The notes beneath the pieces are model-generated. The model was not told where the DNA came from, ran no database searches, and saw nothing but the letters and a program-made list of their open reading frames with translations. This document shows positions 2,575 through 64,000 of a DNA stretch of 64,000 nt, piece after piece. How positions within the stretch are numbered: the stretch's first letter is position 1; every line of letters begins with the position of its first letter. Both the position numbers and the translations under genes were made by a program. This DNA is from Schizochytrium sp. TIO01 (lineage: Eukaryota; Sar; Bigyra; Thraustochytrida; Thraustochytriidae): contig SMSO01000031.1 of the NCBI GenBank assembly GCA_004764695.1, positions 8,117,261-8,181,260 of the forward strand, written 5' to 3'.

Positions 2575-2597
2575 GTAGTACTTTGGGAAAGTACTAC
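2575..2597. repeat. Perfect inverted repeat, 10-bp arms, 3-base loop
   Basis: GTAGTACTTT is followed by GGG and its exact reverse complement AAAGTACTAC. A further copy of AAAGTACTAC lies at 2496-2505. The site is about 235 bp upstream of the ATG at 2832. It may be a regulatory site or a hairpin; function is unknown. Confidence 0.6.
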
Positions 2598-2831
2598 GTC
2601 TTAAATTGGAAAGTGTACTAAAAGGCTATTTCTGGACAAAGTCATGGGTGTAAGAAGAAGGTTTGAAAAGTACAACACCTCATGGAAAGCGTAGAACTAA
2701 AATGCTACTTCTGAGGTACTCAGGCTTTTGCCCAATCTAAGACCCCCGTGTAATTGTTGCATGGCAAACCTGCAACATCTCCCTAGACGAGATTACGCCG
2801 CAGCGAGGCAGTGAGTGCCCAGGCGTAGAAC

Positions 2832-5037: not shown

Positions 5038-5109
5038 GGGGCGAGTTGGGGATTGAACCCAAGACCCCCTCTACCCAAAAGAGGGATGCTGCCACTACAC
5101 CACACGCCC
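5038..5109 (-). tRNA. tRNA-Pro (anticodon UGG)
   Basis: A 72-nt cloverleaf without encoded CCA. The acceptor stem GGGCGTG pairs with CTCGCCC with one T-T mismatch at the sixth pair. The D arm contains GTGTAGTGGCAGC. The anticodon stem CCTCT/AGAGG closes the loop TTTGGGT, so the anticodon is TGG (proline, CCA codons). The T arm is TTGGG-TTCAATC-CCCAA. A TTTTTT run follows on the minus strand, as expected for a Pol III terminator. It is identical over all 72 nt to the copy at 5262-5333. Confidence 0.9.
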
Positions 5110-5195
5110 ATATCATCTTGAAATAGAAGCTGCCACAATTGGTAAAGAACACCATGGAAGGTAGATCAGAAGGGAAAAAATAAAAAATGAGGTTT

Positions 5196-5240
5196 GGAGC
5201 AAGGCGGGAATCGAACCCATAACCCGATTATGGAGGTTGC
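5196..5240 (-). pseudogene. Truncated tRNA 3' half, Met-like
   Basis: Between the two tRNA-Pro genes lies a 45-nt piece that reads on the minus strand as an anticodon-arm-like segment containing CCATAA, then a T arm (GGGTTCGATTCCC) and an acceptor-like CTTGCTC plus C. No matching 5' half (GAGCAAG) lies upstream, where the sequence instead meets the trailer of the other tRNA-Pro. The anticodon loop has eight bases and there is no normal variable loop. A T-rich terminator-like run follows. It is probably a dead tRNA, with CAT as the likely former anticodon. Confidence 0.55.
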
Positions 5241-5261
5241 GAAAACCAAAAAAAAGAAGTT

Positions 5262-5333
5262 GGGGCGAGTTGGGGATTGAACCCAAGACCCCCTCTACCC
5301 AAAAGAGGGATGCTGCCACTACACCACACGCCC
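5262..5333 (-). tRNA. tRNA-Pro (anticodon UGG), second copy
   Basis: Same 72-nt sequence and fold as the copy at 5038-5109, in the same orientation, 152 bp away. It is followed on the minus strand by a run of eight T residues, a Pol III terminator. The identity extends a little into the 3' trailer (AAGAAG on the plus strand), which shows a recent local duplication. Confidence 0.9.
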
Positions 5334-29799: not shown

Positions 29800-32700
29800 A
29801 TGGGACTAGCATCAGGCTTGCGGGAGTTCACTCGACAGGTGGTGGTACTAGCAAAGAAAAATGCAATTCTCCAATGGAGGAATAAAGCATCAACCGCAAC
29901 ACAACTCTGTATTGGCGTGTTTTTCTTATTTCTCCTCTTGATTATGAACAATGCTGTTAAAAAGCTGAATGAACAAGATCAATATATGGTGGAAACCTTA
30001 CATCCTAATGTTGTGGATGCGTCATCAATAAAGCACTGTTTTGGTGTCAATTGTTATGATTTTGTCTATGCCCCAGCAGAGACGGTAACTAATTCATCCC
30101 TTGATGAAGCTCTAGAAGGAGTAATCGAGCTTGTTCGCGCTAGGCTCGACATTTCTGAAAGTCAAACCTTACGTTTTGAAAATGCAACAGTAATGAAATC
30201 TTGGATTTTGGAAAACCAAAATCGTACGAGTGCTGCGGTGTACTTTCCATTTCTTGAATCTTGGCTAGACTTAAGCGCAGGGGGCGTTTTTGAGGAATAT
30301 GTCTACGTTCTTCAGGTAAATCAGACAAAGACCTGCGCGGCAATTGGTGCCTGGGGTTGTGATGATCCTATTGCCGAAGTGGCAATCCCATTACAAACCT
30401 CGATTGATGGTGCGTTGGCGTCTTATTTTGGTGCTGCAGGTTCAGAAGGCGCATCGATTCGTGCATCCTTCTCTGACTTTCCACACCCTGACATGCCATC
30501 AAACTTCGATGTGGTTTCTTCGTTTGGTCCTTCGTTTCTTTACATTGCTGTAAGCTTCAACTATGTTATCCAACTTACTTTAATTGTTGAGGAGAAAGAG
30601 CTGCATTTACTTGAAGCTATGAAGCAAATGGGTATGATGTACAGTGCCTATTGGACATCATGGTTTTTAGTCAACACTGCGGTCAACACTCTCATGGTGT
30701 TACTGTTGGTTGCATTTGGTTCTGCATTCAAGCTAGAACTTTTTTCGGAGACTGCCACCGGGCTTCTCATCGTGTTTTTCTGGTTGTCTTCAATGTCATT
30801 CACTGCCTTGGCATTTCTGTTCTCAACTTTAACTCGAAGCACTTCAAGCGCTAGACTCATGGGTATTGGTATCTTTATTCTAACTTTTATCGCAGCGCCA
30901 ATCATGGTGTCTTTGCTAGTGGAGACTGGGGATCCTGCGGATGATACAGCACGTCGAGTCATGAGCTTGTTACCAATTTTTTCATTCTATCATGTATTAG
31001 ATACCATGATCGCTGAAAGTTCAGGCTCCTCAAACTTAGGCATGTCTTGGGATGATCGCCTGTTGAACATTCTCCCTGCTAATGATGATGGAATTAATGC
31101 GGTGTGGAGTATTCAAGATTCCTTTGGAGCTCTTATCAAAGGGTTTTTAATCATGACCGCGCTTGCTTGGTACTTAGATCATGTGATCCCAAACGAATAT
31201 GGAAAACGGGAATCTTTCATTTTCTTTTTGAAACCGTCGTACTGGTTGCCGCGCGGCACGAGACGTCAAGTGGCGCCAGAAGGAGGAGCCAAGAATCTAA
31301 AACAGAATAATCATCGCCGAGTTGAGCCAGATACAGCTCAGATGGATGACGATGTGGCTGAAGAAGCTAAAAATGTCTTCTCCCGTGACTTTGGAGGTCG
31401 AGAGGTTGCACTGGTTTTCGATAACTTGCGGAAAACGTTTCCAGGGGGCATGTTTGGGGTTGACTTTCACGCAGTGATGGGTCTCGATCTTGCCATTGAT
31501 GCAAATTCATGCTTCGTATTGCTTGGGCACAACGGTGCTGGGAAAACAACAACTCTTCGCATGCTAGCAGGAAATAGCGACGTTACACATGGTGATATTT
31601 CAGTGTTTGGGCGCTCCATTGTGCATGATATGGATGAAATTCGACAAATGATGGGGGTTTGCCCTCAGCATGATATTCTCTGGGATAAGCTTACAGCACG
31701 AGAGCACCTTCGTCTTTTCGCTGTAATCAAAGGTATGCCTGCAGGTAAAATTGAGGCTGAGGTGGAGCTCCGCCTTGAGCAAACTTCGCTCACGTTTGCC
31801 GCGGATGCTCCATCATCGTCCTACAGTGGAGGCATGAAAAGACGTCTGTCCATTGCCATCGCACTGATTGGAGATCCCAAACTCGTAACCTTAGATGAAC
31901 CTACAACTGGGATGGATGTTGAGACACGACGCGAAGTATGGGAAATGATTAGTAAGGCTAAAAAAGGTCGGGTTATTATTCTTACGACTCACTCGATGGA
32001 GGAAGCTGATATCCTTGGAGATCGTATTGGTGTTATGAGTAAAGGTCGTATGCAGGCTCTTGGAACTAGTCTACGACTTAAGTCCAAATTTGGTCGCGGG
32101 TACCGGTTGGAGGTTATGCTTTCACCACAAGCAGACCGTGCACGTATCGAAGAGACATTTCGGCCCCAGGCTCCTGAAGGAACTATAATTCAGGCAAAAT
32201 CATCCACATCCTCCACTGGTGACAATCACATGGTTCTTCAACTACCACGAATGAACGAGAGCGAAGTTCTTGTTCGCTTTCTAGCTTTCATTGAGTCGTC
32301 TCAATCTTCTCTTGGGATTGAAGATTTAGCATTGAGCCTTTCAACACTTGAAGAGGTCTTTATTCGTCTTTCACAGGAAGATCATTTCATCGCTCAGGAA
32401 GAAGAGATAGCAAAAGTACCAGGGGCACTGACAACAGAATTTAAGGCTAGAAATATGGGCACTCGAGTTCAGTTTAATGCTCTCTTGCAGAAGTCTATCA
32501 CGTACCAGTGCAAGCAAAAGACAAGCTGTTGTATGCTTACGATTTTCCCCATGGTGATTATGCTTTTGTTGCTTGCACTTGATTCTGCTCTCTTAACTCC
32601 TTTCAAGCTTGAGGCTATGTGTGGATCGGGAATTAAGACGAAAGAGGAATGCATTGAGTCTGGCTACGACTTGGATTGCGTGAGCCAGCTTGCAACGTAC

Positions 32701-35700
32701 TCTTCACCGAGCGCGCTTTCAGCAGTCGTTGGCCAGATCTCTACGTCAGGTCGACGTGGAGGCATTAATCCTAACTGTGATTCATCTGGATGTTTTACAG
32801 GTCTTGAGGTACCGCGCTATGATCAAATTCCTATCTACGTCAGCACAGCAGCAGGATCAGAATACCTAGGCTCACACAGCTCTTCTCAAACATTCGAAGC
32901 AACTACAGCTCGTGAGTCTCTTGCAGAGTGGTGGGCCAATATGAACTTCTTGCTACGGAATGATACATGTGAGCAAATATACAGTAACCATCTCGATGAG
33001 AGTGAGGCTTGTGCCGATGAATCAGGTGCTGACGCGGTATCTTGCCAGGCACGAATTCGATCATTGCAGTCTGCTGCTGATTACGTAGACTCTGATAATG
33101 GCACGGACACTTCCAGTGCAGGCCTTGGTATTTGTTCGCGGGGGTCGGATGGTAATTTGCTAGTGCCTACGCTGTCTGAGATTGTGCAAATTTATACCTG
33201 GCAGCAAGAAAGAGATGCTTGCTTAGCACTTGCAGATGCGCAAGTGTGGGCACACTTAGCTAGTGCAAATTTTTCTGACTGGTTCGCCACAATTACAGCC
33301 GAAGAAACCATTGAAGGTTTGTTAGGAGAAGTTGAGTTACCTATGTTTACTCAGTCCTACGTACAAACTTTCACAAAAAGAGTGTTAACAATGCTCCTAA
33401 ATGGCGCTGGAAGTATGTTTCAGCTTGATCCTATAGCTGGCGTTAGCTATGGCTGCGATGTAGCAAATTCTGAAGTGTTCGTTATGGCTTCTGTTATTCT
33501 TTCTATTGTCAGCAGTGCTAACCTTGCTGGCATTGTGGTTGATGGGGACAAAGCATTCCAGAATGTCTGCCTATTTGCTAAACATTTGGATATAGTTCGA
33601 GGCCTCTCATACAACCAAACATGGTCATCGGCTTCCGATATGCGTCTGCGAGGTATATTTGATGCCTGGGGTGGTCATGAAGTAGAGACCGAGCTCATGA
33701 GATCCTCCAAGGAGTATCTTCTTGAGGAATCGCAATATTTTGCTCACCAATACTACGCACATTGGCAGGCGTACGAAATTCATGATATTTCTACATCAGG
33801 TATTAATTTTACTGCCTACTACAACAACTCTGCCACATCAAATACTCACCATGGAAATTGGTATGCTTTGGTCAATCTCATTGATAATGCGTTTGTAAAG
33901 AATGCAACAGGACGTGGGGTGCGAATGCTTACGGAGAGCTTTCCAACAGCATTTGTCTGCAACCGTGACGAGTGGCTTCAGGGAGAGGCCGAATCTCTGA
34001 AATGTGATTTGCTACAAGGATTTCTTGCTCTCTCGGTGCTCGATTTTCTAGGCATCACTTTGTTTCCTTATTTGCTGATGGCTCATATGTTTGTAGTGGT
34101 CAACTTGGTTGTCTATGAGAAAGAAAACCGTCTGCGTATGATCATGAAGATGATGGGACTAAGTATGCGTGTTTACTGGGCTGTCAATTATATCTTTTAT
34201 TTTACTCAATACATATTAATGGTATTGATGATGTGGGGCATGGGCATTGCAGCAAATGTACAAACGTTTTCCCTACACGATTCTGCGGTCGTGTTTTTGG
34301 TCTTGTTTTCCTGGGGAAATCTACTTGTTGTGTTTGCAATGTTTTTATCAGTCTTCTTTAAATCATCGCGCACCAGTACGGCAGGCGTCTTTCTTTTGAT
34401 GCTCATTCTAAACACAACTGGAGCAAGTTTGCTTCAGACGCTCACAGAGGACCCGAATACTACAGAATCTGCATTTACTTTCTACATGCTAATCCCTCCG
34501 CTTGTGATGATCCGAGCCATGCTTTGGCTCGGATTGGCCGGAGCGTTCAATGAAGCAATCACTTTGGAAAATTGGAACACGTTTGCAGATGGTGCTGTGC
34601 CTCGATGCGTTGGTTTTATGTGGATGCATGTGATCCTCTTCGGCCTTTTGATGTGGTACTTGGATAAAGTCCTAGCAGTCGGATACGGTGTACCAGAGCA
34701 TCCCTTGTTCTTTTTGAATAAAGAGTACTGGAGGCCATCTACGAACCAGGGTACTGGTGATTTGGCATCGGAGCCCCTTCCAGACTGTATGAAAGATGCT
34801 TCTATGCCTGAGGATGTGAAAGCCGAACATGAGCGGGCAGTCAGGTCAGACTGTAATGATCTTGTACGGGTTGCCCGCTTGCACAAGCAATACAGCAAGG
34901 ACAATATTGCTGTACGCTCTGTTTCTTTGTCTATTCGAGAGAAGGAGTGCTTTGCCCTTCTCGGACACAATGGGGCTGGCAAAACCACAACTATCAACTG
35001 CCTGACAGGTCTCTTTCCTCCAACCTCTGGCAATGCGATGATCCAAGGATACTCTATTCGAACAGCTTTAGATAAAATCTATCAAAGAATGGGCGTATGC
35101 CCGCAGCATGACATAATCTGGGAAACTTTAAGTGGGCCTGAGCACCTGCGCTTTTACGGGAGACTTAAGGGCCTCCGTGGTACTGAACTGCGTGAGGCTG
35201 TGAAAAAGGCATTGCATGACGTTAATTTGACCTACGCAGGCAACAGGCCTGCTGGAAAGTATTCTGGAGGCATGAAACGCAGACTTTCAACAGCTATATC
35301 GCTCATTGCAGATCCACTTGTTGTGTATTTAGACGAACCTAGCACAGGCCTTGACCCAGCATCTCGACAGCAATTGATCCAGGTGATATCACGAGCAAAG
35401 GGCGATAAAGCAGTCGTTCTGACGACACACTCCATGGAAGAAGCTGACCTTCTCGCAGATCGTGTTGGGATTATGTCGCATGGCTTGCTGCAATGCATCG
35501 GGACTCCTGCAGAACTGAAGCAGCGTTTTGGCAAGGGTTACACCTGTCAGATTACGACCAAAGAAAAAACAGAAGCCGCACATAAACATGTGCTTGACTT
35601 TGTGCAGCAGCTGTTCCCCTCGGCCAAACTCCGTAACGAGCAGCTCGCTGGTACCTCGAATTTCGAAATTGATCGAAAGGAAATTGTTCTTTCAGAAACC

Positions 35701-35817
35701 ATTCGTAAGATCGAGGCAGCTCGACAGGACTTGGGTATCATAGATTTTGGTCTTTCGGCAACGACCTTGGAGGAAGTTTTTGTTTACCTTTCGAGAAATC
35801 AGCCTGTTGCTGCGTGA
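29800..35817 (+). CDS. ABCA-family full ABC transporter
   Basis: 2005 residues, complete, with an ideal start context (GCCACCATGGG). Layout: TM1 near residues 33-52, a large lumenal/extracellular loop to about 240, a TM cluster at about 245-465, NBD1 at about 540-780, a second TM1 near 900-920 with a long Cys-rich loop, a second TM cluster at about 1400-1620, and NBD2 at about 1685-1920. Both NBDs are intact: Walker A GHNGAGKTTT (near 577 and 1722), signature YSGGMKRRLS (near 674 and 1819), Walker B LVTLDEPTTG and VVYLDEPSTG, and H-loop TTHSMEEAD. The two-large-loop layout and the NBD sequences are those of ABCA1/ABCA3-like lipid transporters. The likely role is lipid export or translocation across plasma or organelle membranes, powered by ATP; the substrate cannot be read from the sequence. 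Several N-x-S/T sequons lie in the loops. Confidence 0.93.
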   Translation: MGLASGLREFTRQVVVLAKKNAILQWRNKASTATQLCIGVFFLFLLLIMNNAVKKLNEQDQYMVETLHPNVVDASSIKHCFGVNCYDFVYAPAETVTNSSLDEALEGVIELVRARLDISESQTLRFENATVMKSWILENQNRTSAAVYFPFLESWLDLSAGGVFEEYVYVLQVNQTKTCAAIGAWGCDDPIAEVAIPLQTSIDGALASYFGAAGSEGASIRASFSDFPHPDMPSNFDVVSSFGPSFLYIAVSFNYVIQLTLIVEEKELHLLEAMKQMGMMYSAYWTSWFLVNTAVNTLMVLLLVAFGSAFKLELFSETATGLLIVFFWLSSMSFTALAFLFSTLTRSTSSARLMGIGIFILTFIAAPIMVSLLVETGDPADDTARRVMSLLPIFSFYHVLDTMIAESSGSSNLGMSWDDRLLNILPANDDGINAVWSIQDSFGALIKGFLIMTALAWYLDHVIPNEYGKRESFIFFLKPSYWLPRGTRRQVAPEGGAKNLKQNNHRRVEPDTAQMDDDVAEEAKNVFSRDFGGREVALVFDNLRKTFPGGMFGVDFHAVMGLDLAIDANSCFVLLGHNGAGKTTTLRMLAGNSDVTHGDISVFGRSIVHDMDEIRQMMGVCPQHDILWDKLTAREHLRLFAVIKGMPAGKIEAEVELRLEQTSLTFAADAPSSSYSGGMKRRLSIAIALIGDPKLVTLDEPTTGMDVETRREVWEMISKAKKGRVIILTTHSMEEADILGDRIGVMSKGRMQALGTSLRLKSKFGRGYRLEVMLSPQADRARIEETFRPQAPEGTIIQAKSSTSSTGDNHMVLQLPRMNESEVLVRFLAFIESSQSSLGIEDLALSLSTLEEVFIRLSQEDHFIAQEEEIAKVPGALTTEFKARNMGTRVQFNALLQKSITYQCKQKTSCCMLTIFPMVIMLLLLALDSALLTPFKLEAMCGSGIKTKEECIESGYDLDCVSQLATYSSPSALSAVVGQISTSGRRGGINPNCDSSGCFTGLEVPRYDQIPIYVSTAAGSEYLGSHSSSQTFEATTARESLAEWWANMNFLLRNDTCEQIYSNHLDESEACADESGADAVSCQARIRSLQSAADYVDSDNGTDTSSAGLGICSRGSDGNLLVPTLSEIVQIYTWQQERDACLALADAQVWAHLASANFSDWFATITAEETIEGLLGEVELPMFTQSYVQTFTKRVLTMLLNGAGSMFQLDPIAGVSYGCDVANSEVFVMASVILSIVSSANLAGIVVDGDKAFQNVCLFAKHLDIVRGLSYNQTWSSASDMRLRGIFDAWGGHEVETELMRSSKEYLLEESQYFAHQYYAHWQAYEIHDISTSGINFTAYYNNSATSNTHHGNWYALVNLIDNAFVKNATGRGVRMLTESFPTAFVCNRDEWLQGEAESLKCDLLQGFLALSVLDFLGITLFPYLLMAHMFVVVNLVVYEKENRLRMIMKMMGLSMRVYWAVNYIFYFTQYILMVLMMWGMGIAANVQTFSLHDSAVVFLVLFSWGNLLVVFAMFLSVFFKSSRTSTAGVFLLMLILNTTGASLLQTLTEDPNTTESAFTFYMLIPPLVMIRAMLWLGLAGAFNEAITLENWNTFADGAVPRCVGFMWMHVILFGLLMWYLDKVLAVGYGVPEHPLFFLNKEYWRPSTNQGTGDLASEPLPDCMKDASMPEDVKAEHERAVRSDCNDLVRVARLHKQYSKDNIAVRSVSLSIREKECFALLGHNGAGKTTTINCLTGLFPPTSGNAMIQGYSIRTALDKIYQRMGVCPQHDIIWETLSGPEHLRFYGRLKGLRGTELREAVKKALHDVNLTYAGNRPAGKYSGGMKRRLSTAISLIADPLVVYLDEPSTGLDPASRQQLIQVISRAKGDKAVVLTTHSMEEADLLADRVGIMSHGLLQCIGTPAELKQRFGKGYTCQITTKEKTEAAHKHVLDFVQQLFPSAKLRNEQLAGTSNFEIDRKEIVLSETIRKIEAARQDLGIIDFGLSATTLEEVFVYLSRNQPVAA

Positions 35818-48110: not shown

Positions 48111-51100
48111 CTATATTTTAGGTACCAGGTACCCTACCCCAGGCCATTTTGAAACAGACAGCTCGCACGGGAGCCAAAATTTAAATATGTCCTGCTCAAA
48201 TTCATCCTTTACATGTATCAGGATGCTTTCATCATCGCTTTGAACGCCATCTTCCCAACTTGTTTCCAAACCAAAAGGGTCGAAAGGCTCTGCAGCGATG
48301 TCTGACTCAGTTTCGTTAGTATTGTTATTATACGATGGCCTCGCAAACCGAATAAAAATTGTTGGGCCCAGGCTTCGCTTCCCAACCAAGTATGGCCCTT
48401 CTAATTGTTTCAGACGATGATTCCACCGTAAACCTTCAATGAAAACTCCATTGAGCCCTACATCTGCCCAGTCGGTGAATTCCCCTGGTGCTCCAAACTG
48501 TACCTTTGCATCTAGTTGTTGAACACTGCAGTTGAAGAATTTTGCAGAGTCAACGAAGGCTTGCCACAACTGCAACCTAGCTGCACCTGGAGATTTCACT
48601 GCAGTTTCCGAAAAGGACAGAGGGGTCATCGGTTGCGTCTTCGAAGGATGACTTTTTGCCTTTGGTGGCAGCTGCTTAAGACACCCATCATCGCCATCCT
48701 CAACGTCTTTATCTTTATCTTCTATGTACCTCGCATCTGATTTGTGTTGGCTGTTCCCGGTATCCTGATGCCGTAATCCACCCTCATCAGTAGCAAGATT
48801 AGGACTCTCGCTCAGATTGGTTACACCTTTGCTAGGTGAATCGATTCCAGGAAAACGGCGGTTGTCTGTCTTTGATTTGCTACGCTGAATAGGTAGTAAT
48901 GTAGACGTCTCAGCGTGGATGTCGCTGGTCTTAGGAAAAAGAGTTTCCGCAAGTGCTCGTCGAAGCTTGTTAGACTCTGCACTTGCATATCGAGAATCTT
49001 GAGTGGTGTCTGCACCACAGACAACAAACCAATCTGAACGATCGATGTCTTCCAGAGATGTGCCCGAAGAAAAGGTATATGTTTTCGAAGCATGATGCAC
49101 ATTAAGTACTTGTAATTGATATGCTTTGGCCCATGGAGTTGCACGAATTAAGCAACGTCTCTGACCATGCTCAGAGAGTGGGACAATCAATTCGGAGGAT
49201 GTCATCGCTGCTTCAAGTAAACATCTTCCAGCTGGATAGTCTCGGAATATTTCCCCAAGTCGTAGAAGGAGACGGTGTACATCGATCTGGCTCCCACGGT
49301 CATCCATTGTCGCCTTAAAATCGAGTATCATCCGTGCATGAACTTCGCCTTCTGCCTTGTTGCCAGGTGATGAAGAGACAGATTCTTGGCTTTCACGACG
49401 TACAAGGAAGTCAAGTTCGGTGTCGCGCTCAACTCGCGCAAGGTATGTCAGTAGCTGCTCTCGATCTTGTCCCGCTACTTGATGCTGTCTGAGGCAGGAG
49501 ATGACTTCATGAGTATAAATGCCTGCTAAGATCACCTGCCTCCACAGCTGTCGATACGGGGGCAGAGATTGAGCAGATTGAGCAGATTGATGAACATCCC
49601 AGCTATGCAAAGCACTCTTGAATCGATCACCAAGGTTAATACTTCTGCTTCCTGGATCGTTGAAATCAAAAACATGCGCAGCATTGAACAAAGGACTTGG
49701 AACTTCGGATCTTGTTGGTGCAACAAGTATAAGCCGGATCGATATAAGCTCGAGAGCAGCTGCAACAGAATCAGTCTTGCCGGTTTGACTCTGTGACTCA
49801 GAGTCAGAGTCGCAACTATTACTACTACTACCACTACTCCCTGATGATGATGACGATGATGATATCTTTCCTTGTGTGCCTTGAATACCAGAATTCGCGC
49901 TATCCTGGCCCTGCCGCTTTTGGTACTTTGCAAACACCGTCTTGACCCAACTTTGTGGATCGTGTAGCTTTGCAAGGAGACCACTAGCCGCATTAAAATC
50001 TAGCTGCTGAGGGTTGTCTAGGACAATCCACAAGTAGCCTTTGTCTTCTACATGAAGAGACTTTGACAGGAAATTCTCTAATGAGGTATCCAAGTCATCC
50101 AAGATTTCAACATACAGCATGTTTACCTCAATACTTTCCTGAGAAGCCTGAATTAACATTTTGCGTGTCTCGATGACACCAGCGAACCCTTCACGCAAAA
50201 TAACGATTGGATTCTTCCCTGATAATCCACATATAGCTTTTCTAAATACCCCTGCTGACTTGAAGTGCTTCAAATCCATTGGGCCGCCATCTGAAGTCGC
50301 ACTAGGCTTGGCGGTGCGAATATTCCTTAAACTGATCCGATTCTTGGTATTTCCAAGGTTACGAAGCATTCTCCGCGGTTGGGCTTGAGGTTGATCTTGC
50401 TTATTATCTGAGTCTTGATTTACTTCACTCGCGTCGAATTTGTCGTTATCTCCTTCGCCCTGAGAGGTTCTTTTGGCTAGACCATTACGAGCTGGCAGAA
50501 ATTCTGATGGCCGACTCTGTTCATTACGAAGCATGTCCTGAAGATTTTCATGGAAGTCACGCAAGTATGACGTTGCAGCACGGACAAGAAAGGACGGGCA
50601 AGAGTTTACAATAACGATAAAACGTATGAAAGGATTCCAAGCGTTCTCCATCTCCGCTTTCGCGAGCTGGCTCTCCAAAACTTTAAGAGGGTTGTTTGCA
50701 AGCTTCAACTGCAGTATATCTACAACAGAAGCTTCATTGAAAGGTAGCATTAGTTGCGCAAGGGTCTCTATGTGATCTGCAGCCTCACCCAAAGCACTTT
50801 GTACTACTCGGGACCAATCGTGAGTTGTCATGCGAGCATGGCTTCCGTAATCAGGCTGGATTGCAAGAGCAGCAGCCATACTAGGATCTGTCTGCAAAGA
50901 AAGAGAGCTGCTGTGACGTCGAATATGACCGGATGCTCTGCGCGCAGCTTCGTTTAAGTCAAGCCGAGCTGTTACTCGACGTAGCTCTTCAAAATTTAAC
51001 GTAGGGCGTGTTGTATTCTGATTTCGAGTCGATAATTTCCCAGTTGATCCTGGTCGTGAAAGACCACGAGCAGTTCTGACTCTGCGTCGAGTCACATTCC

Positions 51101-52568
51101 TTGGGCCCTTTGAGTTCTTCTGTTCACCATTTGCAAGGCATTTATTTGTTCCGTCAAAAAGTGTGATTGCAACAGAACGAACAAACGCCCGCGTTTCACT
51201 CTGATCAATTCGAACACGCTGTGCATAGATAAGTTCAAAACTGCAAAGTAATTGAAGAGTCAAATACTGCCTTCCATCAAGTTGCGGAGCGAGTAGTTCC
51301 AGCGTTTTATAAAGAAGCTGTGCCATCGCATAGTAAAGCTTTTCCCAGTGTAGTGTAGCAGAGTGGTCTACCCAAACAGTGCGCCCAAGTTCCTTCACCT
51401 TCGTCGCGAACGTAGAATATATGGGCCTGCCATTCATGGGTAAATTAAGCGTTTGTAGAAAGGAAGTTATTCTAAAGAATAGCCTACCTGCAAAAGAAGC
51501 TAAGGGCCAGCTTCTTCGTAACATCCGCCCAAGGTTACCCATGCGGTCAAAGGTCCAGCTTGCAAAGCTCTGTAGTACTTGAAGATAGTCTTTTCCACTT
51601 TGTACAACACGCTCAAAAACTTCTTTATCTTCGAGAAGAATTTCTGTGGCCTGGCTGCTTTCTACCTGTGTACTTCCAATAGGTGAAATTGGTGAGCTCT
51701 CCTCCTGAGAATTCTCAGAAGGATGACGCTTGATGCATAGTTCAGCCATTAGTGCACGGTGCAAATCTGTTTTACGCCCTAGGGTTGAAAGATGGACAGT
51801 AGCAAATGCCTGCCAAGCTTGGAATGAGGCCAAATGAGCTGGTGCCTCGCCTAGAAGTGTTTCTACAAAGCCTAGTGTGAGGGCGTCAATTGTATTAGCA
51901 ATACGGAAATCGTACATTGTAAAGCATTCCCTAATGCAGTCTGCTGTGTGAAGTTCTTCTTCATCTAAGCACACCACAACGAGGTCAAACTCCATTCTTT
52001 TACCTTGTGGGATAGTAGAGACGAAAGATTCTTGAGCGATTGACCGCCCCATGTACTCGTAAATTTGGTTGACGACCTCAATCGCAAAAGATTCGTGACA
52101 GTTTCTTGCTACAATGGCAACCATATCAATCCGCCCTGCTTTAGCCTGTTCAAAGACGCGCTTGGCACTCTCTTTTGACGCACAGGATTCGAGTTCAACT
52201 ATCCTCCTCTGGGTACACTCAGAATATCCTCTCAGCCAAGAGAGACCAATCTGATCAGGGTCTCGCATGTATGGAATTCGAACTGCCCAAGGAAGAAGAA
52301 TGTTTGTGATGCTGTGTTCTCTCACCTTTCGGTTTTCTTCAACAAGACTTGCCATGAGTCGAGCTTGCGCAATTAAGGCACGATCAACTGGCAAACGCAT
52401 GTTTAACCAGGCCAAGACTGTATTGATACTCGTCGAGGTGTCGAGAATGTCTCCGACTGGAAAGTATAGACGCAAGTCGGTAGCACCAAAGCCAACTGGT
52501 ATGCAAGCCAAGGTCCCTGGAAACGAGATTTGTAGGGCCGTTTCCATTTCACCTGCATCATCAAACAG

Positions 52569-52623
<55 letters not shown>

Positions 52624-55600
52624 CTGGAACTATCCTTAGTTCCTGAGCCTGAGCTATTGCTTTCACCGCCATCTGAAGCATCATCAGTATTAACAGCGAC
52701 TTGAACAGGCTCGTGAGATCCAGACCAGTCAACTAGTTTTGACCCTGAACTCAAACTAGGTCTCAGTCCCCTGTTCAACAAAACCTCCATCCAGGCACCC
52801 ATGCAGGCATCCCGCATGCTGGGTTCAATACTGCCTAGATAGACTTCACATGCAGCAACAAGGATAGCGTTCGCGGCCTGTGTACCATCTGCGGTGTCGT
52901 CTTCATCGCGGCGTCGAAGTTGAATAAGGTCTTTATGCCAAGCGTCCTTTATATCTTCTCCAAAGATTTCCTGAATCTGTTTAGCTCGCAGACTCTTTCG
53001 ACCAATCACTACAATTCGAGCTTGTGTTTGATCGCGAATCGCTAAAGCATCCTTACGTCTCTTTGTAGCCTCTTTGAGCAAAGAGCGCAAAGTTGAAACC
53101 TTTTGCATGAGTTCATTGCGAACAACATCAAGGACCCCTGCGTCTGATGTTGCTTGGCTAAGCTCTTCCTGCAATGGCCTGATTGAAGCAAGTACCTCTC
53201 GGTACTTGAGAACCGCTAACAACCAAGAGAGAAAAACTTCCAGCACTCCTCTACACTCAACAAATTTCTTTCGACCACTACTCGCTGTTGAAAGCGAGCC
53301 ATCAGATAACACATTGAATGTCTCTGTCACAGCAGATGTGTGCAAAAGTCGTTTTACCTCTTCAATAATCTCGTCAGGTATTGCATCTTTCTGAACGCCA
53401 AGAAGACGTTGTGCAAGCGCATTATCATCTAATAGAGCGGGAGAACGTGCTCGATCCCAATAGTATTCCTTTGGATGGAACCGTTCTGCAAGCTCTTGGC
53501 GAAGCTGACGAATTCCATCAGGGGACTCATTTCTTGCCACAGCTTCTTGTTCTTGCCGGTGCAACTCTTGTTCATGTAAACGTTCTGGAGCATCCAACGA
53601 TTCACCACTAGAAACAAGATAGAGAGCCCGAACAACAGCTCGTGTTGCTGCATTAGGATTACGCAGATTTCGTAACTCTACGACGCGGGCTCGTGGTAGA
53701 CGATTTAGATTTTCGGAAGAAGTCGCCAAAATTGGACTGACTTCATCAATTGCAAATGTAATTGTATCTCGAAGCTCTCGGACACGCGCATCTACTGCTC
53801 TCCATGATTGTGTTTCTGCATCAAGCTTTGAAGTTTCAAACCCCAGCTCCTCTTCTAACTCTTCAACTTGCTCGCGAGCTCGCTCATAGTTTCGTTTAGC
53901 AGTTTCAAGTTTTGGTTCGAGTGTTGCGAGTTCACCCCGCATACTCACAGCAAAAAGCGAAGTTACATCAATCATCAGTAGAGCTTGCTCGGTTTCCGCG
54001 TAGTGGCTTTGTAAATCCGTGCGAACGCGTACAAGTCGCCTTGTAGCAGACCATGCTAATCGCAGCATACTGTTCACATTCCCAAGAATATCATTTTGGT
54101 TATGAGTTGCTAGAGAATGAATCTCCAAGAGTACCTGACTGAACTCTAGCAGGCTATCATTAGCACTTGTATCTCCAAACTCCATACCAGAACGCTTAAA
54201 CAACGACACTAGCTCAAAAGGTTGAGGATGTTCTTGAGGGGAATGTAACACTGCCTGGCGAATAACCTGCACAGTGAGATCAGCGAGCTCCTCCAATGAA
54301 GGTCGTGTAATGGTCAAGCATCTCGCACTCTGCAAAGAGCCTTTAAGATCGTGTGTCTTACTTGCATGCACAACAATGCGCAGATTTCGACACACGTCAA
54401 TCAAAAATTCATCCTGAACCAGCGAACGGTAATTGCCTCTTGACATACTTTCAAGGCGCCTTGGGTGTTTGACAGCAACACTTTTGGTAGATTGGGTATT
54501 TTCATTATCATCTTCCCCTTGGCTATCCTCCCGCGACTTCCAGATCTCCTCGCGAGCCAAAAGTGCGCTTTCGGTAGAATGGGGCACATTCTTTATGCCA
54601 GGGAATTCATTGAGCTGCACTTGTGACCAGTCTATAATGTGCTCAACTGTACCACGACGGGCTAGCTGTTCAACATCTCGCAGCATATGCTGTTGGTGAT
54701 AGTAAACTGATGCATCGAGGTAGAGTAGGCGCTTACGTCCGGATGGATTTTTCTTACCTGCCTGTAGCAAAAGATCACGTAAACTAGTTTGCCACTCATC
54801 AACCGTTGTTGGTATTTGAGCTTGCACAAGTTCAAAACCATTAACACGAGCAACTTCACTAATTAACATAAAACGCAAGCTTGGAACTTGCGAAGACTCA
54901 ATAAGAACTATTGGGTCGATGGATGTATTTGATTTAGGCAAGTCAAAACAAAATTTCAAGCGACTCATGTAAGTAGCCATAAGACGAGTAGGGAATACTG
55001 GTATGTCGTGCATAAAATCTTGAAGCCGCTTTGTGCTTATCCGGTGCTCTGCATCACGATCTCTTATGACTACTAGCACCTCTTGCTTGTTGTCGTATGA
55101 ATCTTGTGGTTCCGTCACTGTCGAACTATGGGCCGATGATCGTGCCTGGTTTATGCTGCCATAACCTTTACTTTTTCCTGTACCGGGTAGCTGGTACGCA
55201 TTGCCCTCTTTAAGATCCTGTGTATCTTCGTCTTCCTCGTCACTGTCATACTCTTTTTTAGCTTTCGATAAACTCAGTGCAAAGTTAAGGCTCTGATCGT
55301 CTCCAGCTTGATTTATATCAAGCAGAGCTTCATCATCGCAAAAGGCATCTATTAAATTTTCCTCAAGCTCAGCAAAAACGTTTGCGTCTGTGTAGTGTCC
55401 TTGTACAAGAGGTAGAATTTGCTCAATTAGTTTTCGCAAAAGAAGTTCATGATCTTTAAGCGAGATCTGAAGCCTTTCTCGAGCCGCGTAGGACCAAGCA
55501 CACAAGGCTGTCTTGATGACACTTAACATACTCGAATTTGGACTGAGTCCAAACTTGAGAAGGTACTTGCATGCATCAGCTGCAAGGACTCCATTTTGAA

Positions 55601-58600
55601 GAACTGCAGAGAAGGCCTGAAAAACCTCAAGCCATGGAAATTCTTCATTTGGAGCTTGGACATCTCGGCTTCTGCAAGCTCTTCGGATCGCTGGCGCATA
55701 CACTGCGACGACTTCGTCCGCATGAAGGTCACGAAGACGAATCTCTGTCATGAACTGTGTCTCAAGACGTCTTCCATTACCATGTTCAAGGGCTGCAGAC
55801 GAAGTCACCGCAACAAAGCTGCATCCATGAAATCGAACCTTCTCACCTTGGGCACCAAGAAGCGCACCAGTGCTCAGTGCCCCGCGCAATTGCTCGCGAT
55901 CAAACTCTGCTTCCACATGCTGTAGTGCTAAGTCGTCAATGAATATGAAGCCCAAGGGTTCTCGCTCACCAGCAGCATTAGTGTATAAAACATCATCGGC
56001 GAATGTTGGTGGGGCAAACAATCGCTCTTTTACACGATCAAACTTCGCAAACAAGTTACTTAGCAGGCTCAATCTCTGTTGAGACAATCCAACCCGCTGT
56101 ATTGTTGTTGCTCGCGAGAACTTTGACTCCATTTGCAGCTTGTGTTTAGCCAAAGCACGCTCAACAAGGAACCTCTTACCACTAAGAGCCGGGCCGGTGC
56201 AGAGAATGTCTGCTCTATAGGCCAGCTGCGTAGATAGTAACCAAGCTGCACGCCGCTGGTCAGAGGTTGGAACACGAAGCGAAAAGTGAGCTTGAAACAA
56301 GTCCGTCTCATAAGCATTGTCTTCTCTGTGAAGTGCTGCTTCAGCTGTGTCCATGAAATGTTCCCACAAGACCCAGCTAGACTGCTCCACAGAGTACCCA
56401 AAGTCAAACAACGTTTGATCAGGTTCAAGATCTGGTAGAAATATAGCAACTTTCATATTCACACGTGATGATCTGCGAGCATCTTTGCCAAACAGTACAG
56501 CTGCCTCGACTTGCGGGGATAAGGCGGAAGGTCGAGCCTTTTTGGGTCCAAGCACTCGCCTCAAGGCTGCATCAACTTCCCTCATATCTAATGTGGGAAA
56601 TTGACCCACAGTCCATAGAATCCCTAACAAAACAGCAGCTTCAACATGTTGTCTCGCAGGGACGTTTTGCTCCTCAGTTAATACTTGTGCAGGATCAGGA
56701 ACACCCTTGGTCCACTTTCCGTGAAAGTCTGCTAAGATTGAATTCACAGTTGTCGCGAGTTTTGCAACTAAACGTGCTGGAAAAGGTGTGTCAGGCGTAG
56801 GCGAAGCTAAAGCCCAAACAACAGGAAGAGCAGCATGGCACATTTCTTCAATACGTTTTCGATGTGGAATGAACTGAGCCTGTAAACCTAAAGCTGGTCT
56901 TCCAGTATCATTACTTGAGATTTCTGGTGAACCATGAAGCCAAGCATAAAGAATATCCCGAAATGGCAAGGTTCCTTCGTCTGTGTGAATAAGGGTGCAT
57001 TTTGTTAACAAAGACGGTGACACGCCGGCAAGTGTATCGGTTTCAAAAACAACGCTAGTTCGCCCTGGTAGGGCGATGCGATCTCCTTCAATAGTCGTCC
57101 CTGTGCAGATAGCGCGATCGACTGTCTCAACAAGATGTTCAACGAGGTGGGCTGCTTTGTTGTTTTGTAAAGGTCCATCAAGAATGAGCCAAGACATGTG
57201 TTTGATTGCTTTCAGAACATGAGCTGCAAGCTTTTCATTATCTATGCCTCCAATGAAAATCTGATTTGGGGTAGATTTTTGCTGTGTTGCTTTGGATCGT
57301 CCTCCACTTTCAGATGTTGCAGATGATGATGAAGCTTTTGAGTTAGATGTGCCTATGCCTTCTGCACCATCGTCAAATGAGGGCTGCTCGCGATATGTAT
57401 ATGTACGCTCATCACCAAAACCTACCCAAACTTCATGCCCAGCGGAAGTTGGCCCTGAATTACAAAGCACATTCAGAATTGCGCTGCAGTCCTGGTTGCT
57501 TTGAAGTTGCTCCAGTGACATCCCTTTAGTAAACAGCCTTACAGAGCGTATGCGAGACTCTTGCATTATATTTAACGCCTGAAGAAGCACCTTCAGAACA
57601 AGCGACTTGCCTGTGGCAGGTGGGCCGACTAGGATAATTCCACATCTTTGAACTGTGTCTGTCTGAGAAAAAACGCCAGATGCATGCAATAAGTCCAAGC
57701 AGACTGGAGCAATGCCATTAGCCTGAGCTTTGAGGCCGAGGCGTGTCAGTGCTTGACTGAACAACACGTTGCAAAACTTATCAATTTGAGCATCTGAAAA
57801 GGCGGGCATACCCTTTGCAAGAGAGCCACGATCTGATGGCCTCTTGACATCTGGCTGAGCAAGCACGAGATTTGTGCGTTTTCGTCTCAAACGTGACCTT
57901 CTCTGTGAAGGTACAGAGGCGCCAGCAATTACCTGCACTGCATCTTTTGTAGCAGCATTATCTTTACCAAAAATTGCAGCAACAATTCCAATGCTTGTCT
58001 CTAAGTCTTGAGCTCGACCCTCAATTACATGCAAAAGAGCATCTGCAATGAACCCACGTAGGCTTTCTGCAGACGCAGAAGCTTGCAAAGCACTTGCGAG
58101 GAGCATCGATCGACGTCCCTTTGTACTAGAGTCCGCTTTAGCCTCCGCACGCGACTTAGCTTGCCAAGCTGCTGCTATGACATGGTTCACAACAGAAATG
58201 TTCCAATGCTCTCCACAATCGATCAGTCGAAGGGCAACACTAAGTTCACGCCCAAGACGACGAGCGTCATTCGCCCCAAGCTGGAAACGAGACATGAATT
58301 GCAGCATAGCTACAATTCCACAATCTGGCCCCGGCACTCGATGTACACGAACCCATAAGTTTGTGTCATTTAACATTTGCTTTCCTTGCATAGTTCCAAA
58401 AAGGGCCGGGAGACTGTGACCCGGCCGAGTTGTATGTAAAAGCTCCTGATGAGCTGCACGAAGCCAGGAATTTAGGACATTCTGGTGCTTGCTTGAGAGT
58501 TGATCAAAATCTTCAATTAAACCCCATGAATTGGATGCTACGAGACCATGCAAGATACGCTGAAAAGGCTCTACTTTGCTGAGCCAGAACGAGGAAAGTA

Positions 58601-61600
58601 CTAGGCATCGGGTTCCTGTAAGTAGCGCAAGCTCGCGGATTGTTGCAGTCTTTCCCCGTGCCTCAGGCCCCAGAAGGCATCCTACGAGTCCATTGGTTGC
58701 AGTTAGCGCCATTGCACGTAAGCACTGAAGCGTTACTGGGGATATAACCAGCCGAGGATTCTCAGGGGCATCCCATGCAAGACCATGGGTAAAGTGAGCA
58801 CCTAGTGTTTCGATACGTAAGTTGAATCCCTGAGTTTCGATGACCCTCTCATCCATGTAAGATCGAAACCCTAGTTCCCAACGAAGGGGTTCTTTAATTG
58901 CTTCTAAAGCACGATCTCTGAAATCTTGCAAAGTGTTAATAACTGCTGCATTTCGCAGGTAAAATACCTGGCTCGAAAGACCTTCAGGCGCAAGTTGGTG
59001 CTTACAAAAGAATTGAATACCTTTGTCAAGTTGAGCAATAGCACCTTCGAGATTTGCTTCTAAAGGAGGTAGAGTTAGAATCGTGCTTTTCAGAAATGAC
59101 CCGGAGTTTATCAGCTGCAGAGCAGGCTTGTCATAATATTTGTGAATGTCTCCCATTTTGGTCTCTACCAAGTGAGTGCAGCAAATACGTAGAGCTGTTA
59201 GTACAGCTCCAAAAAGAGAAGCATCCTTCACTGCTTGTAAGGCTTGGTCCCATGAATCAAGTTCGCCAAGCTCCTGTGAGACCTCTTTCACTTGAGACAC
59301 ATACAATGCTCGACAATTTTCCTCAAGTTGTTGAAGCCAACTCTCTACGGGAACTCTACGAAGTATCTCAAAGTCCTCAGAGGGCTTGGTCACTTTATGA
59401 GCAAGAGCTATATTGCCAAAGATAAGCATGGGGTGTGTCAAATGATGGAAGTGGATTGATTGCACTTCCATTTGATAAATCTGAACGGAAGACAGATCCG
59501 AGGCTCCGAGATGTTTGACATGCTGACCGAGAATGGTTTCTGCCATTCGGTCCGCTCTTCCAAACTCCAGTGCGCCCCATTCAAAATTAATTTCGGAAAC
59601 ATTATCGAAGAGGAGCCCAATGTTCTGACGAAGGTAGGCGAAATCAGCCTGTCCAGAGCTAATAAATTGCATAAGCTGCGGATCAGAAATAAAATAGAAG
59701 CGTGGAAATTTTGCCCGGTGCACATCAAGTTTGCTACACAGGGAGTCGTTTATTGCCTCAATACACTCATTGAGATCTTGTACCAGTTGCAGGCCTGGTA
59801 CTCTGAATTCTTGTTCTAACTGTAATTTTGCTGCAACATCAAGCTTGCGTCCCTGCAGAACATCCATAAGTAGGTGTAAAGAAACACGTCGATTACTCAC
59901 AGTCTGGGTAAATTGATCCCAGAGTTTGTTTGCGAAATGAAATGAGCGAATTTCTTTCTGGCTCAGCTGAATTCCAGGCATATCACTTAGAGACTCTGCA
60001 AATAGAGCCTCGATGGGTTCCCATTTGCTCTGAAACGCTTTAATCGCTTGAAGCCAATGCCGCAGATGTGTAATACCCTTTGTCCAGGCCTCTGCGCGTC
60101 CTATCATATCGCCAGAGCGCGTGTATTTCGAGGCTTGTATATTTTGCATTTGTACCAGCTGATCTTCAATCATCCGTACAATATTGTCCACGTCTAAGGA
60201 TTTGGTAGGTCTGAGCTCAGCAATGTCATCAATAGAACCATCTTCTACCTCTCCCTCAGCCCCACCCCTAGTGTTTCCATGAGCCCCTGACGAGGATACT
60301 GATTTACTAGAAGCCCGCGAATGATCACGATGAAGCATTGCTTTGGAGGAGAAATTTCTGGTCAAGGGTACTTTAAAGCGACCATCAGCTCGTGCTTGGG
60401 CATGCTCACCATGATCAGATGATAATGCTAGAACATGCATAGCTGTAATTCCTGTTTTTACAGTCCGAATGCGGTGCGTATGTAAAGCAGTAGCCATTCG
60501 ATCCATGTTCTTCTCAACTTCGTATTCATGCTCTGCAAGAGCACATATTTCAACAATTTCGTCATAGTATCGTACAAGATTGAGATCTTCTAATGTTCGC
60601 AGGCTGACTTTGTCATACTGAATGGCTTCGATTGACTTTCCTTGGTTCAACGCTGCACTCACAGAAGTAGATACATGCAAAGAAGGGATATTGATGCTAT
60701 CCCCATTTTCACCTTCTAGAGATTTACTTCCATTTTGACCACTGGGAGAATCTTCAGTTTCTAAAGCTGAGTGTCCGTCCTCAGCACAATTGCCATCGTC
60801 GTCTTTTTCGCTATCATCTTCACAACTCTCTAACCCCTGTTCTTGTTCATCATCAGCATCCATTCTGATAAGTCCCAAAAGCTCACCAAGGTATGCCCCG
60901 TCTAAAGGAACCATGATTGAGACAATTTGCCGCCAGTGTCTTGCTCGCAGGGCTTTGCTACTGAGAAGACGTAAGAGAGGGAGCTCATCAGTGAAATCAA
61001 GAAGAGTTTGTTTGACGGAGAGGCAGATTGTCAGTGCAGTTCCATCATCAGCTCCATTAAGATTATCAAGTAAACGATCAAGATTGGATACCCATCCAGT
61101 GTTTGGATCAAGAATAAGCTCCTCCACGTAATCTGCATCTAGCTGTACAAAAGAACCTTGGCGCCAAAGCTGAATTGCTTCGCGCGAGTCTGCAACAATT
61201 GACCAGAGCTGATTGTAAAGATTTGCTCGCTCTACTAGCTGCTTAACTTCTGCCAAAACACGTTCTGCATCCAGGGTACTGTTGCTCTTCACTACTGGGA
61301 TACCTCGTACAGCTTTCTCAGGTCTATCAAAGACACGAATTCGTGAAGCAAGCGTTTCCATAGTAGAGTATGCGCTCAATACTGCCTCATTCACATATTC
61401 TGCTTCGGCTGCAATCTGTGTAGCCTCTTGAACTTGATCTTTGGCTGCGACTTGAGCTATTTGGGCTCGTAGCTGTTGCACATAGTCTTTGAAGCGCTCT
61501 TTCTCAGCATTCAACTGAACTAAGAATATGCTTTCTTGCGACTTGGCTTTCTCTACCCGCTCCTTACAGACCTTTATAATGCGCGCCGGTTCAGCTAGTA

Positions 61601-64000
61601 GTGCAGCTTGGAAAAGCACACCTTCATGACTTCTCATGTAAAGTAGACGTTCAAGAACTTCAAATCGTCGTTCCGCAGGAGCTATCCATTTGGACCAGAT
61701 ACGCGCAAGAATTGATTCTAGCTCCATCTCAAACTTCCATAACGCGCTCAAGTCATCAGCTGTGCTAATCCGTAGTTGGATGCTCTCAAGAAGCTCACTG
61801 TACTCTTGTTGAGCATTTTGAAGAGATGCCATTGCTTGACTATGAAGTTCGTGCATAAGGCGCATAGCCATATCTTCACAGCGTTGTCTGAGTGTCCTCT
61901 TTGCTTTTCTCGATTCCACCTTGAATAAAGGTATATGTACATCACTTGGTAGCTCATCATTAATATGATTTGCAGCCTCGCGAAGACGGAGCACCTCTGC
62001 CTCGCAAGCTTGTAACATGAATTTCTCTACTTCTAAATGCACGCTGAGCTTATAGTTTGCTTCAAGGCAAGACTGATCTTGCGGAAACGCGTCCACCTCT
62101 CGAAAGCTCAAATCTTGTGTAGAAAAAAACTTCCCAGAAAGGTCTGCATCATCACCGTTTGGATTTGCTTGATTAACCATTGCAGCATTAATAAAGTCAT
62201 TTTCTGTGCCAGTTCCAAAGACATCATGACTTTGCTTCATGAAAATATCTTCCTCTTCATGAGATTCACCGAAACCTGAAGATGAAGATGATGAAGATAT
62301 ACTATCGTGACTCTCTGCTGAGATTGGAGATTCTCCGCTTTGACCCCAGCCGAGCGATGAATTATCCGAATCACTTGCAGTGTCATTTGCGTAGAAACCC
62401 GGTAAGGCGTGTAGCACCCCAGGCGTGTCTCCAGTAAACATTGATGTAATCATATTTGTGTCATCTGGTATTTCACGGCGGACTGAGCGGCGTACCCAGG
62501 GTTGTGTGAACCACTGGACATACATGTCAAGATCAAGTCGAGCTATGTGTGTAACTTTTGAATGTACACCCTCTAAGATTTTGCTCTCGAGGGCATCCAT
62601 TTGATTCATAACTTCATCTGCTGTAGCTACAGACTCACTAATAATTGCGTCAAGACGACATTTAGCTGTCCAAATGCTATCAACTACAAATTGGAATGGA
62701 TCACCTGTTTGTATAGTTCTGTGGAACATATAGTGAACAGGTGTTCCAACCCAACGCTTACGGCGGATCGTCATTAAACTTTGTAACACTAGAGGTATAA
62801 GGGGACCAGGAGGCTCAACTGCTTCTTTGCCACTAGCGACAGCTCTCAGGGCAGCAAGCACTGGAACGAGATCGTCTGTAGGGTTTGTGATTGTGAGAAG
62901 AATATGGGCAAGTTTTTCAACCGTGCTCAGTACTCGTTGGCGAACCTCGTCAAGGGTAGGTTGGAAAAAGGCCCCTTCTTCGAAGTGCAACTGGACGGTA
63001 AATAAACCCTCTTTTACACTTTGCACAGAAAGACATTTCTCGAGATAGACGTCCAAACGACGCCCATCAGATTCTGAAAGTAGTTTGGCTGAGGTCGTGA
63101 ATCCGCTGCTACACTCAAATAGTGTCACATAACGTTGCAATGAGCTATGCATATATTCAAAAAGATATTGCCGAGCTACTAGGCGCGTACGATGCACAAG
63201 GCGCTCAGTACAGCTGCCGTAGTATTCTTCGAAACTACGGGTGTAAAATTGATAGGTACTTCCGTCAGGTCCTGGGAGACCTTGAAGCTTTCCCAGACAG
63301 AGCATGATAATTCCATGCAGCCATTTGCTACTTAAAAGGTGTGCTACTGTTTGTAAGTGATTGCTTTGCTTTTTTGTGAACGACTCTGCTCGCATTGGTG
63401 GAGCAAGATCCTTAATGCCAAGAAAAAAATCCATCTGCAGCTCTCCCTCAGCGAGAACACTAGGAAGATCCACACCATTTTGTTGTGCCAAGAGCATATA
63501 TTCACGAAGGTGGTCAAAACAAAATAATGCACGAGCTTGGACAACTTGTCGAGCTTCACTAAAGTTGAAGAGTTCCTGGATCGGCTTTTGTGTTCGTCTT
63601 TGCCAGTCCATGAAACTCTGCTGTTTAAGCTTATATACGGCTCGCAGACGCCATTCCTCGATTGGAAGTGCGTGCATTGCAAGCATACGAGGCCGAGCCC
63701 ACTCTGGAGTTCCATGCCAATTATGGAATATTTTGTTGCGTCTCCGCTGAAGCTGGTGTGCTGGTTTGCTACTTAGGAAGATTGAGTATGCACATGCAGC
63801 TTCATGCATATGAGACTCTGTTACCTCAAACAGCTCCTTTCCAAGCATCTCATGGGCCTTTTCGACAACATGCCGTAGAGCGTGTTTAACACCCTTTTTG
63901 TCTAGCGCGCTCGCTACTCCATGTATCAAAGCATCGTGGTTTGGGGTGCCTTTATCGCTTGAGCTATTTTCTGTATCATCTACAGATTTTATCACAGATG
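48111..64000 (-). CDS. Very divergent giant dynein heavy chain (5' end outside window)
   Basis: More than 5290 residues in one frame; it starts beyond 64000, because the first in-window codons are TCT and GTG, not ATG. Numbering from 63995: tail about 1-1250; linker about 1280-1650 (KWEPIEALF, then FPRFYFISD); AAA1 P-loop GPEARGKTAT near 1776; AAA2 P-loop GPPATGKS near 2124, with LILDGP and LAGVSPSLLTKC further on; AAA3 P-loop GPALSGKR near 2602 and FIFIDDLAL; AAA4 near 3028 without a P-loop; stalk coiled coil about 3360-3480, then ELRNLRNPNAATRAV; poly-Asp insert near 3792; a long AAA5/AAA6 part; C-terminal NGVFIEGLRW and GPTIFIRFA as in dyneins. Ser/Asp/Gln-rich inserts are frequent. It is larger than usual heavy chains (about 4100-4700), with the excess after AAA4. 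It could be a DNHD1-like degenerate dynein or a lineage-specific paralogue. Motor activity is doubtful. Confidence 0.85.
52569..52622. repeat. Trinucleotide array encoding poly-Asp in the dynein
   Basis: About eighteen ATC units on the plus strand read as GAT (Asp) in the dynein frame, flanked by Ser/Asp-rich codons. The array keeps the frame; its length should vary between strains. Confidence 0.85.

Follow-up and report, generated by a model that had tools for sequence, protein, structure and literature searches.

A giant dynein heavy chain of Schizochytrium sp. TIO01 with altered AAA1 catalytic positions and a ring far more eroded than its tail

Single-headed inner-arm dyneins have one head, are bound to actin together with p28 or centrin, and dock in the 96-nm repeat; the usual example of an odd-one-out dynein is DNHD1. 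The human DNHD1 protein (4753 aa) is a dynein-related chain standing apart from the standard ones (available portions of PMC8754002 and PMC9916431), and the available text of PMC8754002 describes it as an orphan and a ghost gene. Among kinesins, the non-catalytic heads of Vik1 and Cik1, partners of the kinesin-14 Kar3, are homologous to a motor domain and, though lacking ATP chemistry, keep their hold on microtubules (PMC4338441, portions available). Here we describe a giant dynein heavy chain ('the giant') from a 64,000-nucleotide stretch of Schizochytrium sp. TIO01 (assembly GCA_004764695.1, contig SMSO01000031.1, positions 8,117,261 to 8,181,260; G000:C30:8117261-8181260 in our numbering), which is referred to as the window and belongs to a scanned genome of 64 Mb in 37 contigs. 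With the single-headed inner-arm chains (DNAH3, DNAH7 and DNAH12; the Chlamydomonas inner dynein arm (IDA) in 8glv) the giant shares domain order, tail similarity, its favoured position in a tail-linker tree and the predicted stalk-tip fold, and its N-terminal module weakly matches three chains of this group from its own genome. It differs from them by replaced AAA1 catalytic residues, a damaged AAA3 P-loop, an unrecognisable AAA4 P-loop, some 1600 additional residues and an extremely long branch. DNHD1 is likened to it by description only. Vik1 and Cik1 resemble it in principle only, being kinesins with no homology to the giant that act as partners of Kar3; purely by analogy, they may be regarded as its nearest working precedent.

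Within the window, the open reading frame (ORF) of the giant was free of stops for 5295 codons up to the right-hand edge (Table 1). Completion with neighbouring DNA located an ATG at window-equivalent position 65921, preceded at a distance of 30 bases by an in-frame TAA; the single exon thus defined encodes 5936 residues. A preliminary description of the window had announced a dynein heavy chain of more than 5290 residues with its N-terminus beyond the window, and had proposed the 5' completion performed here; both its length estimate and its view that the uninterrupted frame is under selection agree with the completed gene, as a run of 5936 codons without a stop would arise by chance at this base composition with a probability of ~10^-141. 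A candidate 5' exon of 50 bases (window-equivalent 66021-66070) would join in frame across a 95-base GT..AG intron, lengthening the protein by 18 residues to about 5954. The codon-usage score of 0.023 (0.061-0.095 in five canonical dyneins of the same genome, about -0.085 for random sequence) is of coding type, though weaker than in these five canonical chains. A decaying pseudogene was excluded by the 5936 codons without stop or frameshift together with coding-type codon usage, and fusion or read-through of two genes by a domain order that is that of a single dynein from end to end. A second genomic copy was also considered; the C-terminal 2399 residues matched only themselves and one canonical dynein gene (3.2e-4).

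A Pfam search with the last 5000 residues returned DHC_N2 (3.1e-39), AAA_6 (1.5e-11) and AAA_7 (5.6e-6); no dynein family was found in AAA4, the stalk, AAA5, AAA6 or the C-terminus, and the few other matches were weak and unrelated. The best match among solved dynein structures reached 1.4e-36. The giant was aligned with 11 retrieved dynein proteins and six chains of the same genome, 17 in all and some of them incomplete; its tail, linker, AAA1-AAA6, stalk with its tip and C-terminal domain followed in dynein order, collinear throughout. All the parts that define a dynein heavy chain were present, namely a linker, six AAA modules, a stalk with tip between AAA4 and AAA5, and a C-terminal domain. 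Judged by its sequence, the giant is a full-length dynein heavy chain, and the signatures first noticed in the linker, AAA2, AAA3, stalk and C-terminus were borne out by the end-to-end alignment. The homology of AAA3-AAA6 rests on collinearity, motifs and models. Structure models (mean predicted local distance difference test (pLDDT) of 61.6 and 56.7) and a fold comparison also supported dynein identity, and the models predicted a stalk with a tip. Approximately 770 residues were contained in 20 insertions of at least 20 residues, in which runs of acidic residues and of Ser occur.

The catalytic positions of the giant were compared in a table with those of 20 dyneins (17 from the same genome and three others), with one further chain, C32b, listed apart; the sensor-I alignment differed between two alignments, and the values given are from the later alignment and the tabulation. 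We take the tabulated Arg in SPATVSRCG to be the Arg finger and the Arg of HYDFGLR to be sensor II. In AAA1, Walker-A K and T were retained, and five of the seven tabulated positions of the site were altered (Walker-B D to E, Walker-B E to D, sensor-I N to Q, sensor-II R to S and AAA2 Arg finger R to K), each of the five being invariant in 20/20 comparison dyneins. Of the features of an active AAA1 motor site, the P-loop is retained; the Asp-Glu pair of Walker B, the Asn of sensor I, the Arg of sensor II and the finger Arg supplied by AAA2 are each replaced. AAA2 retained its P-loop and Walker-B D, the AAA3 P-loop retained K with Ser/Thr replaced by R (one other comparison row has G), and the AAA4 P-loop was unrecognisable in the alignment. 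In the available part of PMC8304172, sensor I, the Arg finger and the Glu of Walker B are named as catalytic, and the Glu-to-Gln form is treated as non-hydrolysing. The giant is probably without normal ATPase drive. Of the eroded ATPase modules claimed in the preliminary description, the divergence of most AAA modules holds; the AAA1 P-loop is still there, and erosion is uneven, being least in the tail.

Alternatively, the exchanged acids of Walker B could form an altered working site together with the Gln of the sensor and the Lys of the finger, in a slow, unusual active motor; the presence of the AAA1 and AAA2 P-loops and the conservative nature of every AAA1 change except that of sensor II speak for this. 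Such a motor seems improbable to us, since those five of seven AAA1-site positions are otherwise invariant, the Ser/Thr of the AAA3 P-loop is replaced and the AAA4 P-loop cannot be recognised.

Erosion was compared module by module, taking the giant's best score in bits against six chains of its own genome that group with DNAH12, with the median of these six among themselves in brackets. The giant reached 40.6 bits in the tail (median 91, minimum 14), 34.3 in the linker (291), 29.6 in AAA1 (462), 37.2 in AAA2 (252), 2.0 in AAA3 (312), 6.4 in AAA4 (252), 26.8 in the stalk (279) and 1.7 in AAA5 (456), and no score above 0 was obtained for AAA6 (287). The strong divergence originally reported for most AAA modules was thereby confirmed, AAA3, AAA5 and AAA6 lying at about 2 bits or below. 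Four of the six tail scores were above the canonical minimum, and the remaining modules were far below theirs. Identity ratios were 0.77-0.89 in the N-terminus and tail, where low baselines compress the tail ratio, and 0.30-0.66 in the linker, ring and stalk; the C-terminal domain shares no columns and was followed by alignment instead. The tail of the giant is much less eroded than its ring.

This pattern would also arise if the docking tail alone were selected, with ring and stalk carried along as a passenger that folds and fills space. The same genome does contain a 1906-residue chain ('mini') with a tail, part of a linker and no recognisable ring, and in the giant the ring and stalk are both far more eroded than the tail. 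Its stalk and tip nevertheless retain their length and predicted fold, and ~3500 ring codons carry neither stop nor frameshift, so that we consider a tail-only function fairly unlikely.

Table 1 Features of the giant dynein heavy chain (positions in the window)
Feature	Position	Strand	Basis or remark
Giant dynein heavy chain ORF, in-window part	48111..63998	-	5936 aa in full, with the start at window-equivalent 65921
Distal tail, similar to single-headed inner-arm dyneins and with the least erosion, residues about 1318-1885	60267..61970	-	sequence comparison
Linker, residues about 1886-2349, DHC_N2	58875..60266	-	Pfam, alignment
AAA1 large domain; P-loop GPEARGKT intact (58647-58670), Walker B FDEFNR to IEDFDQ (58500-58517), sensor I TMN to TMQ with short deletion	58182..58796	-	alignment, tabulation
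AAA2 large domain; intact P-loop (GPPATGKS), intact Walker-B Asp, Arg finger (serves AAA1) to Lys, SPATVSRCG to SPSLLTKCT	56922..57650	-	alignment, tabulation
AAA3 large domain; P-loop GPALSGKR (Lys intact, Ser/Thr to Arg), Walker-B FIDDL intact	55500..56267	-	alignment, tabulation
AAA4 large domain; no recognisable P-loop, core strands predicted	54264..54974	-	alignment, structure model
Stalk: coiled coil CC1, microtubule-binding domain, CC2; predicted two long helices and helical tip	52893..54032	-	alignment, models
AAA5 large domain with inserted acidic loop (run of 18 Asp)	51642..52892	-	alignment
AAA6 large domain, strongly diverged; about 1/3 of next small domain aligns to gaps	49476..50489	-	alignment
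C-terminal domain, recognisable only by alignment to canonical dynein ends	48114..48995	-	alignment

In a tree built on the linker to early AAA3 (38 rows), the end branch of the giant measured 8.09 versus a median of 0.51 and no close kin was supported; the motor-region trees (38 and 33 rows) did not place it. Given this long branch, the giant does not lie within a standard axonemal class with a normal branch, a placement with which the preliminary description would have been incompatible. Approximately unbiased (AU) tests on the 33-row motor region did not reject an inner-arm placement (p = 0.641) and came close to rejecting a cytoplasmic one (p = 0.0597). The tail alone retrieved 10 dynein rows among 12 matches, the best being 8glv_Kg (1.2e-11), assigned as single-headed by elimination, and the class-named ones being DNAH7 and DNAH12 (E 0.004-0.19). 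The tail-linker tree joined giant and mini to the single-headed set (support 100/99), composed of C31a, C35b, C6, C31c, C33a and C24b from the same genome with P0054 (= DNAH12) and P0008. The giant stayed with this set when mini and P0008 were removed (97/99), as did mini without the giant and P0008 (93/100), and neither the motor-region nor the tail-linker tree grouped the giant with cytoplasmic chains. On tail and linker, AU tests rejected cytoplasmic chains alone for the giant (p = 0.024; four tests, uncorrected); the test of going with the others (p = 0.497 for the giant, 0.223 for mini) is uninformative because a sister position also fits. Matches of p28 type are present in the same genome.

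Collectively, these comparisons favour, without proving, descent of the giant from the single-headed inner-arm group (DNAH3/7/12 type). The tail evidence would make it a degenerate paralog and not a separate ancient class. Of the two readings first suggested, that of a probably non-motor chain agrees with the AAA1 changes, and inner-arm ancestry is favoured by the tail evidence over an unreported class. P0008 (4570 aa), a match from the protein searches, is itself a dynein on a long branch (2.18 in one tree, 2.68 in another); its AAA1 motifs are canonical, and it falls near the same inner-arm group as the giant.

A possible history begins with duplication of the gene for a single-headed inner-arm-type axonemal heavy chain, one copy of which would have been freed from motor duty. 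The tail, which sets the docking place of a single-headed inner-arm dynein on the doublet, would have been held under much stronger constraint than the ring, with linker, ring scaffold, stalk and microtubule-binding domain retaining their architecture, AAA1 losing its ATP-hydrolysing residues and AAA4 its P-loop. In the resulting protein, AAA1 and AAA2 may still take up nucleotide but would not hydrolyse it normally; it would use its tail to dock in the flagellum as inner arms do, and offer its stalk to the neighbouring microtubule, acting as a passive linker, spacer or brake. We give about an even chance to the giant being an inner-arm-type dynein turned pseudo-motor and passive microtubule linker, a function that we infer.

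Several observations weigh against this interpretation. The structure models are weak at the pLDDT values given above, and are biased towards the dynein fold because canonical dyneins were in the input alignment. Cytoplasmic placement stands on the motor region at the p value already quoted, and the four uncorrected AU tests on tail and linker keep a DNAH6-like (0.149) and a two-headed-plus-cytoplasmic position (0.152) as well as one together with, or adjacent to, all 12 others (p = 0.487). Residues 430-530 match an N-terminal-module profile of C31a, C33a and C24b with 9.9 bits (best of 300 shuffles 2.7), a profile of three rows picked by eye after the giant had been seen, and the N-terminal part found no match among solved structures. 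Among the six scores of the tail, two (-12.8 and 2.5 bits) fall under the canonical minimum, and the stalk, with an identity ratio of 0.42-0.44, is no better preserved than the ring. Finally, most of the replacements in AAA1 are mild in chemical terms (D/E swap, N to Q, R to K), which would leave room for slow hydrolysis.

In a profile search of the genome, 19 matches to AAA4 represented 18 heavy chain genes, by which the host is presumably a flagellate. DHC_N2 gave 26 matches representing 20 genes: these 18, the giant and one on contig C33. C34c, one of the 18, corresponds to DYNC2H1 by its best solved relatives. Mini (L054:3392-9112, minus strand, on C33) carries DHC_N2 (4.5e-13), and a Pfam search found no AAA family in it. 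Its only dynein match among solved structures was Chlamydomonas DHC2 (1.9e-9), over the tail and linker start; its N-terminal part matched only antibodies there (best E 0.004), and the N-terminal module of the C31a/C33a/C24b profile was not seen in it. An ORF convergent with mini (L054:1705-3177, plus strand) is peptidase-like by appearance.

A third chain, C32b (G000:C32:2357030-2362429, AAA1 locus L044; a single frame of 4266 aa), resembles the giant in having an altered AAA1, with a natural Walker-B Glu to Gln and a sensor-I Asn to Arg change. Unlike the giant, it has P-loop Lys and Ser/Thr in AAA1, AAA2 and AAA3 and is much less diverged (branch 3.13), grouping with C4b and C24a of the same genome and P0006 (support 97, quick tree). 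Its nearest relatives are DNAH9 and DNAH17, making it outer-arm beta-class-like (for outer-arm dynein background, see the available part of PMC12338079). Thus three of the 20 heavy chain genes (giant, C32b and mini) apparently look de-motorised, and the remaining 17 retain all the AAA1 residues that were tabulated.

As proposed for DNHD1 in the available text of PMC8754002, the giant could also be a ghost gene, a decaying duplicate with little function of its own that stays open mainly since truncated forms are harmful; its codon-usage score below that of the five canonical chains would suit this. We consider it distinctly improbable: unless selection acts on it directly, a frame that stays free of stops along a branch of ~8 changes per site is difficult to account for, the tail is selectively retained, and mini is a truncated relative in the same genome. 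Defects of the sperm flagellum in men are, moreover, reported to result from DNHD1 mutations (PMC9916431, portion available).

Ortholog searches used residues 1641-3241, 3201-5936 and 642-1701 of the giant (1000-2600, 2560-5295 and 1-1060 of P0001), together covering residues 642-5936, and returned 51, 2 and 0 matches, respectively, with no ortholog recognised. All 51 matches had dynein Pfam domains (best 2.3e-20 at 23% identity), and the other two had E > 1. Absence of orthologs is not proven by these searches, because they need shared exact words and two of them scored the best 1138 and 1195 candidates. A search of the open-access literature gave no account of the giant or of a similar set of chains, the extra classes of Kollmar 2016, the main dynein classification, lying outside that search. 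As far as is known, and as far as these literature searches show, there is hardly any description of natural dyneins whose AAA1 chemistry does not work.

Elsewhere in the window are an ORF with a coiled-coil match to ODAD1 of the outer-arm docking complex (20311-21531, plus strand, 5.7e-21), a 2005-residue ABCA-type transporter in a single frame (29800-35817, plus strand) and two tRNA-Pro (TGG) genes on the minus strand (5038-5109 and 5262-5333), ~150 bases apart. A PfaA-type synthase with an opposite-strand partner nearby is a mark of thraustochytrids. In this genome, G000:C4:591651-617209 encodes a PfaA-type polyunsaturated fatty acid synthase above the curated cut-off, with repeated matches in mid-gene, and a second large gene near it on the opposite strand matches the same model; none of 14 control genomes reached the cut-off, although 11 of them gave weaker matches. 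This arrangement points to a labyrinthulomycete host.

It is conceivable, though we hold it doubtful, that thraustochytrid-like flagellates keep graded de-motorised heavy chains to build structural parts of the flagellum, in which case dyneins would have their own equivalent of the non-catalytic kinesin heads; the grades would be disablement of AAA1 only, erosion of the whole ring with the stalk retained, and loss of the ring. Together, the giant, C32b and mini would make a passive-linker role of dyneins testable, in the manner of the non-catalytic kinesin heads. They also serve as a warning that dynein gene counts can exceed the number of actual motors.

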